Positions 8,268 to 50,550 of a DNA stretch of 64,000 nt are shown here, in pieces. Source of the stretch: Treponema sp. Marseille-Q3903 (GTDB taxonomy: Bacteria; Spirochaetota; Spirochaetia; Treponematales; Treponemataceae); NCBI RefSeq assembly GCF_014334335.1, contig NZ_JACSEU010000001.1, positions 1,302,001-1,366,000 of the forward strand, given 5' to 3'. Both the position numbers and the translations under genes were made by a program. The notes beneath the pieces were generated by a model, which had not been told where the DNA came from, did not search any database, and saw only the letters and a program-made list of their open reading frames with translations. The stretch's first letter is position 1. Every line of letters starts with the position of its first letter.

Positions 8268-8485
8268 AAAGGAGGTGTGATAAAAAGTGTCGTCTGAAAT
8301 ATCGCCGATACTTTTTATTTCGAGTTTGCCTGGATGTTTGCAGAAGACGTGTATACGTGTCGTTTCGATAAAAATCAAATGAATACGATACGCTTTATTT
8401 TGCAAACTCGACTATTGAACGTGTGCGCTCTTGCGCACGGCTAAAAACTTTTTCGGAAATTGCTATTTCCTGCAAAAGTTTTTAT
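8268..8485 (+). repeat. 218-bp perfect repeat, copy 1: structured leader element
   Basis: This stretch is identical, without a mismatch in my base-by-base reading, to 35763-35980. It begins with AAAGGAGGTG, a near-ideal complement of 16S rRNA, and ends one base before the ribosome site of the downstream XRE-cupin gene. Perfect stems visible are: CGAGTTTGC (8321-8329) with GCAAACTCG (8402-8410); GTGCGC-tctt-GCGCAC (8423-8438); and a long hairpin in which AAAAACTTTT (8443-8452) pairs with AAAAGTTTTT (8474-8483) around GGAAAT/ATTTCC. A shorter stem joins 8282-8292 with 8306-8316 with one mismatch-like position. I read it as a cis-acting RNA leader or a mobile repeat used as one. Confidence 0.85.
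8287..8382 (+). CDS. Possible 31-codon leader peptide inside repeat copy 1
   Basis: A GTG-initiated frame of 31 codons ends in TGA at 8380-8382. It sits 11 bp after the strong GGAGG of the repeat, a little further than ideal. The peptide begins MSSEISPILF. Its reading would pass through the first stem and one arm of the 9-bp stem, so translation could change the folding, as in leader-peptide attenuation. There is no conservation evidence beyond the identical second copy. Confidence 0.3.
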   Translation: MSSEISPILFISSLPGCLQKTCIRVVSIKIK

Positions 8486-8498
8486 GGGAGGTTTTAGG

Positions 8499-9074
8499 AT
8501 GAGTGAAAAAAATAAAATCGGTGCTAAAGTAAAATTAGTGCGGGAAAACAGAAAACTCAGTGTTGAAGATGTATCGGAGCGCACGAATTTAAGCGTTGAA
8601 CAAATTTTAAGCATTGAAAGCGGAGCGCTCGTGCCGAATCTAACTCCTTTGATAAAAATCGCCCGAGTTCTCGGTGTTCGGCTCGGAACTTTCATGGATG
8701 ATGATGAAAACCTTGGACCTGTTGTCGCACATTCTAAAGATAAAAAAGAAGTTACACGATTCAGTGACCGCGGAAATGCCGTTAACTCTGACCTTGATTT
8801 TTATACGCTTGCGCAAAATAAAGCCGGTCGTCACATGGATCCTTTTATAATAGATATTTTCCCTTCATCAGAGGAAGATATTAAACTTTCAACACACGAA
8901 GGCGAAGAGTTTATTTATGTCCTTGAAGGCGAAGTAGAAATTCTATACGGAAAAGATAAATATGAATTAAAACAGGGCGACTCAATATATTACGAATCGA
9001 TTGTAGCTCATCATGTTCACAGCCATGGCAACTGCAATGCTAAAATTCTCGCCGTTGTATATACGCCTGTTTGA
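8499..9074 (+). CDS. XRE-family regulator with C-terminal cupin domain
   Basis: 191 residues starting MSEKNKIGAKVK; GGGAGG lies 7 bp upstream. An in-frame TTG at 8460 would add 13 residues encoded by the repeat's hairpin and is rejected as the main start. Residues 8-65 form a helix-turn-helix of the Cro/C1 type (LSVEDVSERTNLSVEQILSIE). The C-terminal half is a cupin barrel with HEGEEFIYVLEGEVEILYG and a later HHVHSHGNCN. Such proteins usually bind a small acid or CoA-linked ligand and control neighbouring metabolic genes. It follows the 2-oxoacid oxidoreductase operon and has a paralogue at 12242. Its leader is the 218-bp repeat. Confidence 0.85.
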   Translation: MSEKNKIGAKVKLVRENRKLSVEDVSERTNLSVEQILSIESGALVPNLTPLIKIARVLGVRLGTFMDDDENLGPVVAHSKDKKEVTRFSDRGNAVNSDLDFYTLAQNKAGRHMDPFIIDIFPSSEEDIKLSTHEGEEFIYVLEGEVEILYGKDKYELKQGDSIYYESIVAHHVHSHGNCNAKILAVVYTPV

Positions 9075-19161: not shown

Positions 19162-19234
19162 GCTGCCTTAGCTCAGCTGGTAGAGCACGTGATTTGTAAT
19201 CTCGGGGTCGTGGGTCCAAATCCTACAGGCAGCT
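19162..19234 (+). tRNA. tRNA-Thr (anticodon TGT)
   Basis: A complete cloverleaf: acceptor GCTGCCT/AGGCAGC, D-arm with GCTCAGCTGGTAGAGC, and anticodon loop TTTGTAA giving TGT, which reads ACA. The anticodon stem has one T-T opposition. The T-loop reads TCCAAAT, with C at position 55 where pseudouridine is nearly universal. The discriminator base is T and CCA is not encoded. Confidence 0.92.
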
Positions 19235-19243
19235 TTCCCAAAA

Positions 19244-19326
19244 GGGGAGTTTCTAGAGTGGTCAAATAGGACAGACTGTAAATCTGTTGGCTTTCGCCTT
19301 CTGAGGTTCGAATCCTCAACTCCCCA
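19244..19326 (+). tRNA. tRNA-Tyr (anticodon GTA)
   Basis: An 83-nt class II tRNA with a long variable arm: acceptor GGGGAGT/ACTCCCC, anticodon loop CTGTAAA giving GTA, T-arm TGAGGTTCGAATCCTCA with the standard TTC, discriminator A. It lies 9 bp after tRNA-Thr, so both probably come from one transcript. Confidence 0.95.
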
Positions 19327-26615: not shown

Positions 26616-27010
26616 CAGACGGGATATAACCGCGTTGTTGTATCTTGATGATAAGATATAAAAATGAGATAAAGTCCGGGCTCCTTCGGAAAAAATGCCG
26701 GGTAACCACCGGGCATAATCTGGTAGTTGCATAATTTCTTGCATAACCCGGATTGTGACAGATAGTGCAACAGAAATTGTACCGCCTGAAAAGGTAAGGG
26801 TGAAAAGGCAGTGTAAGAGACTACCGCGTAAATGGTAACATTTACGGCTTGAAAACCTCATTTGGAGCAAGATTAAGCAGCAGTTATGTTATTCCGAGCA
26901 ATACTGTGGGTAAATCGCTAGAGTCAGCTGGCAACAGTTGATGCGGATAGATGGTTATTGTGAATACCTTTCGGTGTTCATAGACAGAACCCGGCTTACA
27001 ATCCCGTCTG
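26616..27010 (+). ncRNA. rnpB: RNase P RNA, bacterial class A
   Basis: The P1 stem pairs CAGACGGGAT (26616-26625) with ATCCCGTCTG (27001-27010). Between them lie the conserved blocks GATAAAGTCCGGGCTCC, GTGCAACAGAAA, GGTAAGGGTGAAA, GTAAGAGACTACCG and, near the 3' end, AGACAGAACCCGGCTTACA. Eight T residues follow directly and act with P1 as terminator. It matures tRNA 5' ends. Confidence 0.95.
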
Positions 27011-27027
27011 TTTTTTTTGTGACTGCA

Positions 27028-35762: not shown

Positions 35763-35980
35763 AAAGGAGGTGTGATAAAAAGTGTCGTCTGAAATATCGC
35801 CGATACTTTTTATTTCGAGTTTGCCTGGATGTTTGCAGAAGACGTGTATACGTGTCGTTTCGATAAAAATCAAATGAATACGATACGCTTTATTTTGCAA
35901 ACTCGACTATTGAACGTGTGCGCTCTTGCGCACGGCTAAAAACTTTTTCGGAAATTGCTATTTCCTGCAAAAGTTTTTAT
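35763..35980 (+). repeat. 218-bp perfect repeat, copy 2: structured leader element
   Basis: Identical to 8268-8485 and in the same relation to its gene: 13 bp separate its end from the ATG in both copies, and those 13 bp differ (AGGAGGAAAGAAT here) apart from carrying the ribosome site. All stems of copy 1 recur at +27495. The unrelated sequence on both sides shows that only these 218 bp have been copied. Here the element would form nearly the whole 5' untranslated region of the nitroreductase transcript. Confidence 0.85.
35782..35877 (+). CDS. Possible 31-codon leader peptide inside repeat copy 2
   Basis: Same GTG-to-TGA frame as at 8287-8382, 11 bp after GGAGG. Here a promoter lies just before the repeat, so the frame would be the first open frame on the transcript. 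Confidence 0.3.
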   Translation: MSSEISPILFISSLPGCLQKTCIRVVSIKIK

Positions 35981-35993
35981 AGGAGGAAAGAAT

Positions 35994-36755
35994 ATGCCAA
36001 GCATAAACGAAAACAGAAGATTTTTAAAAACTTATTTCAGCGATTTAGATGGAATCACAACCGATTCAAAAAAAGGTTTGCCAAAACCGTCTGCTGAAAA
36101 AAATTGGTCAGAAAATTATGTGCTGATCGATTTACCTGAACCCGATCCGAAAATCATCAAAAATGACAGCCTTTATAATTCGTTCAAAAATAGGAGAAGC
36201 GTAAGAAAATATGCAGAACAAGCATTATCGCTTTCAGAACTTTCCTACCTTTTGTGGGCAAGTAATGGTGTAAACCAGAGGGGAGAGGGTGGAATTGTAA
36301 AGCGAACAACTCCTTCCGGCGGCGCTTCTTACAGCATAGAATCATATATCATTGTTCAAAATGTAGATGGACTCGAAAGAGGCGTTTACAATTATCTTCC
36401 GATCGAGAACAAACTTGTTTTTATCAAAAAAATTGAAAACATTTCAGACATAATAGATAGTTTTATGCTTGATTCAAAACAACCGTTCCTTCCGTATTTT
36501 GCAAGAAAAGCTGCCGCAATTTTTGTCTGGACAACAATCCCATACAGAAGCGAATATAGATTTGACATCATGGCTCACAAGAAGATTTTAATTGATGTCG
36601 GTCATATATGCCAAAACCTGTATATTGCATGCGAAGGAATTGATGCAGGCTGCTGTGCAATCGGTGTTTATGAGCAGGACGTAGTTGACAAACTGCTTCA
36701 AGTTGACGGCAAAGACGAATTTACAGTTTATCTCGCAGCTGCCGGTAAAAAATAA
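35994..36755 (+). CDS. Nitroreductase-family flavoprotein, SagB/ThcOx-like
   Basis: 253 residues from ATG 35994 with AGGAGG 8 bp upstream. NSFKNRRSVRKYAEQALSLSELSYLLWASNGVN is the FMN-binding start of the family, TTPSGGASYSIESYIIVQNV the second conserved part, and GHICQNLYIACEGIDAGCCAIGVYE the third. Relatives are FMN oxidoreductases; substrates are seldom known. It is the first gene of an operon with the Crp/Fnr regulator 42 bp downstream and is preceded by the 218-bp leader. Confidence 0.85.
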   Translation: MPSINENRRFLKTYFSDLDGITTDSKKGLPKPSAEKNWSENYVLIDLPEPDPKIIKNDSLYNSFKNRRSVRKYAEQALSLSELSYLLWASNGVNQRGEGGIVKRTTPSGGASYSIESYIIVQNVDGLERGVYNYLPIENKLVFIKKIENISDIIDSFMLDSKQPFLPYFARKAAAIFVWTTIPYRSEYRFDIMAHKKILIDVGHICQNLYIACEGIDAGCCAIGVYEQDVVDKLLQVDGKDEFTVYLAAAGKK

Positions 36756-49737: not shown

Positions 49738-50517
49738 ATGAACAACATCGAAGTTATTTCAGAACCTACAGAAGAAAAGCCATTTTTAATCATAAATAAA
49801 CCTAAAGGACTTCCCTCTGCCCCTCTTTCTTGCGATGACAAAGAAAATGTAATTTCTTATGCAATCAAGATGTTTCCCCAGATTGAAAATGTCGTTGGAC
49901 ACAAAAAGATAGAATATGGGTTGGTTCATCGCCTCGATACAGTTACAGATGGTTTGCTTGTCATAGCGACAAGTCAAAAGTGCTATGATTTTTTTATGGA
50001 AGAACAGAAAAACAAAAGATTTTTTAAATACTATACGGCGAGATGTGCAGATTTACCTTTAAATGCTAAAGAACTCGGTGGATTTCCTTTTTGTAAAGAA
50101 TGTTTACGAGATACACAATCGGCTGTCTTGTCTTCATATTTTAGACCGTTCGGCTCCGGTTCAAAAGAAGTTCGTCCCGTAACAGAAGATTCAGGAAAAG
50201 CTGCCTTAAAAAAAATCTGCAAACAAAAAACATATTTTACTGATGTAAACATAATTGACAGCGGTGGGAAAAATAAATTCGGTCGTGAATGCAAAATCAT
50301 TAAGTGCAAAATTGCAGAAGGATACAGGCATCAAGTCAGATGTCATCTTGCATGGGCAGGCTGGCCTGTAAACGGAGACGTTTTATACAATGCTGATTTA
50401 AAAAATGAAGAGAAAAAAAATACAGAACAACCGATTGAGTTTTCTGCAACAAAAATTGAATTTGAGTACCCGAGAGGAGACTTGAACTCCTATGAAATTG
50501 CTCTCACTTGGACCTGA
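49738..50517 (+). CDS. Pseudouridine synthase, RluA family
   Basis: 259 residues. The catalytic segment GLVHRLDTVTDGLLVIATS (aspartate near residue 67) and the later YRHQVRCHLAWAGWPVNGDVLY are family marks. It isomerises uridine in rRNA or tRNA. It has no S4 domain. Its last 17 codons lie on the opposite strand of the tRNA-Leu gene, so the natural C-terminus is encoded by antisense tRNA sequence; the conserved domain ends before it. It starts 6 bp after the zinc-ribbon gene. Confidence 0.85.
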   Translation: MNNIEVISEPTEEKPFLIINKPKGLPSAPLSCDDKENVISYAIKMFPQIENVVGHKKIEYGLVHRLDTVTDGLLVIATSQKCYDFFMEEQKNKRFFKYYTARCADLPLNAKELGGFPFCKECLRDTQSAVLSSYFRPFGSGSKEVRPVTEDSGKAALKKICKQKTYFTDVNIIDSGGKNKFGRECKIIKCKIAEGYRHQVRCHLAWAGWPVNGDVLYNADLKNEEKKNTEQPIEFSATKIEFEYPRGDLNSYEIALTWT

Positions 50518-50550
50518 ACCAAGCGCGTCTACCAGTTCCGCCACCCGGGC
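50467..50550 (-). tRNA. tRNA-Leu (anticodon CAG)
   Basis: 84-nt class II tRNA: acceptor GCCCGGG/CTCGGGT with G-U pairs at the ends, D-arm GCGGAACTGGTAGACGC, anticodon stem-loop CTTGG-TTCAGGT-CCAAG giving CAG, variable arm GAGAGCAATTTCAT, T-arm AGGAGTTCAAGTCTCCT, discriminator A, no encoded CCA. It marks the boundary between the housekeeping region and the accessory region. Confidence 0.93.

Follow-up and report, generated by a model that had tools for sequence, protein, structure and literature searches.

A small structured repeat of Treponema that probably inserts at Shine-Dalgarno sites and carries a replacement

Why should two unrelated genes of Treponema sp. Marseille-Q3903 be preceded by the same 218 bp? 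In the 64,000-nt stretch analysed here (positions 1,302,001 to 1,366,000 of contig NZ_JACSEU010000001.1, assembly GCF_014334335.1; hereafter the window), positions 8268-8485 and 35763-35980 are the same letter for letter, their flanks are unrelated except for a left-hand AAAGGAG and a right-hand RGGAG, and each copy stops 13 bp short of an ATG (at 8499 and 35994, respectively). The first-pass annotation, which had described this pair, left two readings open: a leader-peptide or RNA-controlled attenuator that has spread, or a MITE-like repeat that inserts next to start sites. Much of its description holds. The near-perfect Shine-Dalgarno that it placed in the element is there (AAAGGAGGTG), as is a 31-codon ORF with a GTG start (8287-8382), and Pfam agrees with its naming of the two downstream genes (Table 1). 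The stems it described are present; not every one of them is perfect, because stem 1 contains G-U pairs. The better supported of its two readings is the MITE-like repeat next to start sites, and we consider the element likely to be a small non-autonomous repeat that is mobile, inserts at Shine-Dalgarno sites and carries a replacement Shine-Dalgarno. The Shine-Dalgarno at the insertion point, the restored one at the 3' end and the kinship with the Rfam TD-1 RNA are absent from that earlier account.

Table 1. The two window copies, their parts and the genes behind them (window positions; the exact left boundary of the inserted segments is inferred from tpiA and fba in named Treponema).
Feature	Position	Strand	Remarks
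Copy 1, 5' flank AAAGGAG	8268..8274	+	read as the gene's original Shine-Dalgarno from empty sites elsewhere
Copy 1, inserted segment	8275..8490	+	216 bp, including its own terminal GGGAG
Copy 1, hairpin 1	8279..8319	+	
Copy 1, hairpin A	8320..8411	+	arms 8320-8329 and 8402-8411
Copy 1, hairpin B	8422..8439	+	covariation in relatives
Copy 1, hairpin C	8442..8484	+	ends 2 nt before the new Shine-Dalgarno
Copy 1, new Shine-Dalgarno GGGAG	8486..8490	+	supplied by the element
Gene 1, HTH (XRE-type) and cupin regulator	8499..9074	+	191 aa; Pfam HTH_3, Cupin_2
Copy 2, 5' flank AAAGGAG	35763..35769	+	read as original Shine-Dalgarno
Copy 2, inserted segment	35770..35985	+	216 bp, including its own terminal AGGAG
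Copy 2, hairpins	35774-35814, 35815-35906, 35917-35934, 35937-35979	+	
Copy 2, new Shine-Dalgarno AGGAG	35981..35985	+	at the 3' end
Gene 2, nitroreductase family protein	35994..36755	+	253 aa; Pfam Nitroreductase

The pair belongs to a larger family. A BLAST search of the whole genome (2.51 Mb, 4 contigs) with the 218 bp gave 22 rows, made up of 11 full copies, not just two, and 11 rows in which the last hairpin matches its own complement. The 11 copies are 98-100% identical, which is consistent with the recent copying proposed from the window pair. Each stands in sense orientation with an ORF start 8-16 nt past the 218 bp, and the products behind them belong to unrelated Pfam families: Nitroreductase, HTH_3 with Cupin_2, Mur ligase, Cupin_2, malic enzyme, dCMP/cytidine deaminase, Obg GTPase, thiamine-pyrophosphate enzyme, amino-acid-kinase fold, alpha/beta hydrolase and NMT1-like binding protein. 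By inspection the Mur ligase is MurD, the thiamine-pyrophosphate enzyme is acetolactate-synthase-like and the protein of amino-acid-kinase fold is UMP kinase. Plasmid and phage collections contain no match to the element.

All 11 copies sit between a 5' AGGAG and a 3' RGGAG; the 3' motif is GGGAG in nine and AGGAG in two, while the base before the 5' GGAG is A in every copy. Among 50 two-ended copies, a count that includes orthologues, A precedes the 5' GGAG in 41 and G precedes the 3' GGAG in 33. Comparing the two ends of each copy, the base left of GGAG agrees in 16/50 (12.3 expected; 38/1000 shuffles as high) and the first base right of GGAG in 26/50 (17.9 expected; 1/1000 shuffles as high). 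What is repeated is thus GGAG, with perhaps slightly more on its right side in some copies.

Orthologous sites with and without the element show where it goes in. The gene fba has it in Treponema sp. Marseille-Q4130 and lacks it in T. socranskii subsp. socranskii (flanks 96-97% identical) and subsp. paredis (92-94%), where the empty site reads ...TTATTTATAGGAGTTG(G/A)TATGG. At tpiA the element is present in Marseille-Q4130 and in subsp. paredis but absent from subsp. socranskii (flanks 95-97%), which reads ...TTTTTCTACAGGAGTTTTTATGG; Pfam confirms the identity of both genes. The occupied tpiA site runs ...TTTTTCTACAGGAG, then ATACGATAAAAAG...AAAAGTTTTTATAGGAG, then TTTTTATGG, so that the change can be written as CTACAGGAG/TTTTTATGG becoming CTACAGGAG/(element ...TTTTTATAGGAG)/TTTTTATGG. 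From these two pairs it follows that the insertion point lies directly behind the native AGGAG, and at both genes the new RGGAG is as far from the ATG as the old AGGAG was. For murD, occupied in the genome of Marseille-Q3903, a match was found in 94/98 genomes; the best 30 loci were read, one being that genome itself, and the roughly 100 nt before the gene are empty in all 29 relatives. On this comparison of occupied and empty loci at tpiA, fba and murD, the element is mobile, and the same loci are the reason for reading it as a repeat that enters Shine-Dalgarno sites with a replacement. In the two-genome comparisons, precise deletion as the source of the empty sites is formally possible. One further locus (L304) gave no clean empty site, its upstream DNA being unrelated in two relatives; for another (L297) a 75% orthologue in the genome of Marseille-Q3903 lacks the element.

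Related elements occur in other Treponema, as the first-pass annotation had suggested looking for. A search of 97 genomes with the 218 bp matched four, the source genome included: one relative (G048) holds divergent copies, and two (G018, G021) show a short core match only. An ORF starts 11-19 nt after the element in all seven G048 copies read (L050-L056), and an eighth, weaker place in that genome (L057) has two tandem relatives. We also scanned named genomes for the right-end pattern with RGGAG and obtained at least 119 stretches. Among the 80 matches listed, 26 are from Treponema (T. vincentii OMZ 806, T. sp. Marseille-Q4130, T. parvum ATCC 700773 and two T. socranskii subspecies); the other 54 were taken as chance because they lack the 5' arm of hairpin C. 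The 26 stretches contain 27 right ends; after 25 of them an ORF of at least 80 codons begins within 4-7 nt, and after the other two another copy starts. A second set, partly overlapping the first, consisted of 40 stretches from BLAST matches, 20 each in subsp. paredis and Marseille-Q4130, and yielded 19 and 18 right ends fitting the pattern, with none in 3/20 loci of each genome. An ORF start follows in 17/19 and 15/18, and after the other five right ends the sequence reads as the 5' end of a next copy (three by script, two by eye). Genomes outside Treponema were covered by the named-genome pattern scan and by the same-order relatives.

At the normal (gathering) threshold Rfam does not report the element in the window; in sensitive mode it is matched to TD-1 RNA (RF03155) with 50 bits (E 4.7e-6) over the whole model (positions 1-120). 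The 11 copies score 47.3-52.8 bits, below the gathering cut-off of 64.5, and some GGAG-ending copies in two relatives (G048 and G006) exceed that cut-off. By this model match the element is a sub-threshold relative of TD-1, a class reportedly from Weinberg et al. in 2017, labelled Cis-reg by Rfam and placed in clan CL00124 together with TD-2. The element and TD-1 share the genus and the order of hairpins. The element differs in having an additional 5' hairpin outside the model and in being mobile and tied to Shine-Dalgarno sites, on both of which the Cis-reg label is silent. In a survey whose strict filters lose weak matches, TD-1 is present in 24/117 genomes (the source genome included), all of one genus, above cut-off in 3/117, and in 0/14 control genomes. 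We listed 136 TD-1 matches, of which 89 end in GGAG, 29 in GGAA and 18 in neither, and counted a match as lying before an ORF start if an ORF of at least 60 codons (40 if running off the locus) began within about 16 nt after the motif. Among the 89 GGAG-ending matches 76 lie before an ORF start, six before a tandem copy, six at neither and one at a contig end; of those without a GGAG end, 9/47 lie before an ORF start. Since the element lies in the sequence neighbourhood of TD-1, the GGAG-ending members of that class are probably such elements and not riboswitches.

The element folds. Against 200 shuffles its stability gives z = -4.95 as RNA and z = -7.56 as DNA, with 0/200 shuffles as stable in either. 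The compensatory-change check that had been proposed shows strong covariation of the hairpins. In an alignment of 40 GGAG-ending elements, taken from 64 distinct ones with a 5' GGAG, the 21 predicted pairs hold in 98.5% of cells, 16/21 have changed on both sides, and the covariation score reaches 0.530, where shuffles give 0.164 and slid controls no more than 0.116. Hairpin 1 is poorly aligned in that set and finds its support in the smaller alignment of the Marseille-Q3903 and G048 copies, where 7/52 pairs have changed on both sides (0/500 shuffles; one slid version reaches 4). A measure of further pair types is not above shuffles in the two alignments, with 52/500 as high for the 40-element set and 173/500 for the other. 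The loop of hairpin A in copy 1 contains an extra stretch of about 72 nt that is missing from two of the G048 copies (L055 and L056). The first-pass annotation had held that copies at random positions, with no gene polarity and no covariation, would speak for a plain repeat; the outcome of this check is mixed, with perfect gene polarity and strong covariation, yet with mobility seen in the occupied and empty sites.

These observations suggest the following course of events. An element of about 150-220 bp, longer where it has nested inserts, would insert in one orientation directly 3' of the AGGAG in a gene's Shine-Dalgarno and would become a four-hairpin 5' leader. Because its last bases are RGGAG, a Shine-Dalgarno would again stand a few nt before the start and the gene would stay translatable. 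On average the insertion leaves the predicted accessibility of the Shine-Dalgarno unchanged, the mean over the 11 sites being 0.52 with the element versus 0.51 without it, with single sites at 0.07-0.82; the values are 0.63 versus 0.55 for tpiA and 0.73 versus 0.72 for fba. Counting against the preferred reading are this wide variation in accessibility, the seven GGAG-ending TD-1 matches that stand at neither a start nor a tandem copy, and the outcome of the enzyme searches given below.

How much of the pattern needs a targeted insertion is a fair question, since machinery that requires only (A)GGAG, or that lands anywhere, could give the same picture if selection left the copies at Shine-Dalgarno sites. 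The constant AGGAG to the left of the 11 copies, and the A before the 5' GGAG in most of the 50 two-ended ones, would fit a plain sequence preference, and selection would remove insertions in coding DNA, where 56 of the 74 AGGAG sites of the window lie. A startless intergenic AGGAG should be equally harmless, however, and the window has seven of these (about two being the copies' own left flanks) beside 11 that are Shine-Dalgarno-like by a test of the kind used for the TD-1 matches, with ATG as the start; yet the 11 copies are all at starts. TD-1 matches with other 3' ends do sit elsewhere for the most part, some of them beside pieces of ABC-transporter genes. It is because these other-ended copies are mostly elsewhere, and because startless intergenic sites are about as harmless, that we infer the ribosome-binding sequence to be the choice of the integration machinery, and we regard untargeted insertion followed by selection as unlikely. 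A genuine cis-regulatory RNA, a leader or riboswitch of the TD-1 class kept for its effect on the gene and spread by duplication, would account for the Rfam label, the covariation and the uniform sense orientation. It would not lead one to expect downstream genes that have no function in common, presence that varies between genomes at orthologous sites, tandem arrays, or copies as nearly identical as these. The mismatches do not help it either: G-T outnumber A-C by 86 to 56 in all, unevenly between groups and in copies that are not independent, and this count does not tell a folded RNA from a folded single-stranded DNA. We judge this explanation highly improbable.

The remaining alternative, the leader-peptide attenuator of the first-pass annotation, drew on the strong 5' Shine-Dalgarno and the 31-codon open frame of the window copies. 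It fails because the GTG start is lost in relatives: the start is kept in 11/11 copies of the source genome, in 1/6 of G048 and in 2/43 matches at named Treponema loci (overlapping loci unmerged). Nor did a promoter and terminator scan find any terminator-like site around either window copy; promoter-like matches lie only upstream of copy 2 or overlap its start. We give this reading next to no probability. A six-codon micro-ORF whose ATG or GTG lies two bases past the 5' GGAG was considered too and set aside; it is kept in 11/11 and 5/6 copies of the same two genomes, but reads ACG in 33/43 of the named-loci matches.

What might move a repeat of this kind? IS200/IS605 elements are described as having a tetranucleotide of the target beside their left end and one of their own as the last bases of the right end (PMC6006769). 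The present element resembles non-autonomous derivatives of that family in following this tetranucleotide rule and in having hairpins at both ends: the left tetranucleotide is the target's and the right one the element's, as seen in the tpiA and fba pairs and in the differing 3' base of the Marseille-Q3903 copies, and hairpins 1 and C are subterminal. The difference lies in the enzyme. Y1 transposase has no match in the source genome, in G043 or in G048, and is found in 1/8 carriers as a partial match; across the genus it occurs in 25/98 genomes and in 8/24 TD-1 carriers, little above the overall rate. Guide sequences pairing with cleavage sites offered no clear candidate by eye. Examined as a classical MITE, for terminal inverted repeats and a target-site duplication, the element has ends that share only ATAAAAA, as judged by eye, and a GGAG present at either end, perhaps with one further base on the right. 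REP/BIME sequences with their RAYT enzyme are likewise palindromic and interspersed, with a short tag beside a hairpin; the tags are given as GTAG/GTGG and the size as 21-65 nt in the same source (PMC6006769), whereas our element has GGAG and 150-220 bp, and we rejected this assignment as no Y1-family enzyme was found in the source genome. A retroelement or group II intron was rejected as well, reverse transcriptase (RVT_1) being present in 1/8 carriers (T. vincentii) and missing from the source genome. BOX, RUP and SPRITE of Streptococcus pneumoniae are also short, structured, interspersed and partly modular, are judged parasitic and have inserted into one another; the portion consulted describes no ribosome-binding-site target, and its only mention of Shine-Dalgarno sequences concerns ORFs lacking one (PMC3049150).

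Within the enzyme families searched, Y1 transposase and reverse transcriptase, these results leave a mobilising enzyme that was lost, is supplied from outside or is of another family. With less weight than the target itself, a single-strand mechanism following IS200/IS605 logic may be proposed. We lean slightly toward a wider view as well, in which there is a class of bacterial mobile elements that target and regenerate the Shine-Dalgarno, that can therefore place dozens of low-cost insertions before the genes of one genome, essential genes included, and that make up much of TD-1. Their enzyme would belong to a type with which such repeats have so far not been associated, and might act on single-stranded DNA or on RNA at translation initiation.

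Many mobile elements limit the damage they do by settling in safe places, for example tRNA genes or terminators. If our preferred reading of the element as a mobile repeat is true, a repeat that picks the ribosome-binding site and supplies a substitute would have a safe harbour of a new sort, in a part of the gene that is among its most sensitive, and much of an orphan Rfam class would be explained as mobile DNA. It would also be a warning that covariation and a fixed place before genes do not prove a riboswitch. What is new is the target and the rereading of TD-1; that small palindromic repeats exist is not. In the open-licence literature we found no report of TD-1 or of Treponema repeats at Shine-Dalgarno sites. 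The natural pairs of occupied and empty sites in T. socranskii and its close relative make the effect on expression directly testable.

Several further observations concern the wider family. Orthologous or similar copies (L277 versus L256; L230, L236) differ by extra palindromes that lie within hairpin 1 or within the loop of either hairpin B or hairpin C, and hairpin loops seem to be places where further inserts lodge as a second layer. Two distant subfamilies stand before tpiA, one in G011 (L185; gene named by eye) and one in Marseille-Q4130 (L301), as if the same site had been used twice independently. Tandem pairs at four loci of G043 (L114, L116, L119 and L120) have units near-identical within each locus, each ending in GGAG, and would reflect either duplication in place or successive insertions into the new Shine-Dalgarno. 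In the source genome, three tandem copies of another TD-1 subfamily (L095, G000:C1:864445-864939) directly precede an ORF of more than 300 codons that would begin with TTG, and the sequence after the last copy repeats the element's first bases. GGAA-type TD-1 matches adjoin ABC-transporter gene pieces at L092 (G000:C1:2109077-2109191, minus strand) and at L099 and L103 of G048; the flanks of L092 read as two parts of one ATPase gene, which the copy seems to interrupt. TD-1 and TD-2 may represent opposite strands, or different parts, of one set of repeats, because a sub-cut-off match to TD-2 (RF03162) lies opposite the tandem TD-1 pair of L057 (1207-1302, minus strand). The window also holds a bacterial RNase P class A RNA gene (26616-27014) and three tRNA genes (19162-19234, 19244-19326 and 50467-50550), all ordinary.
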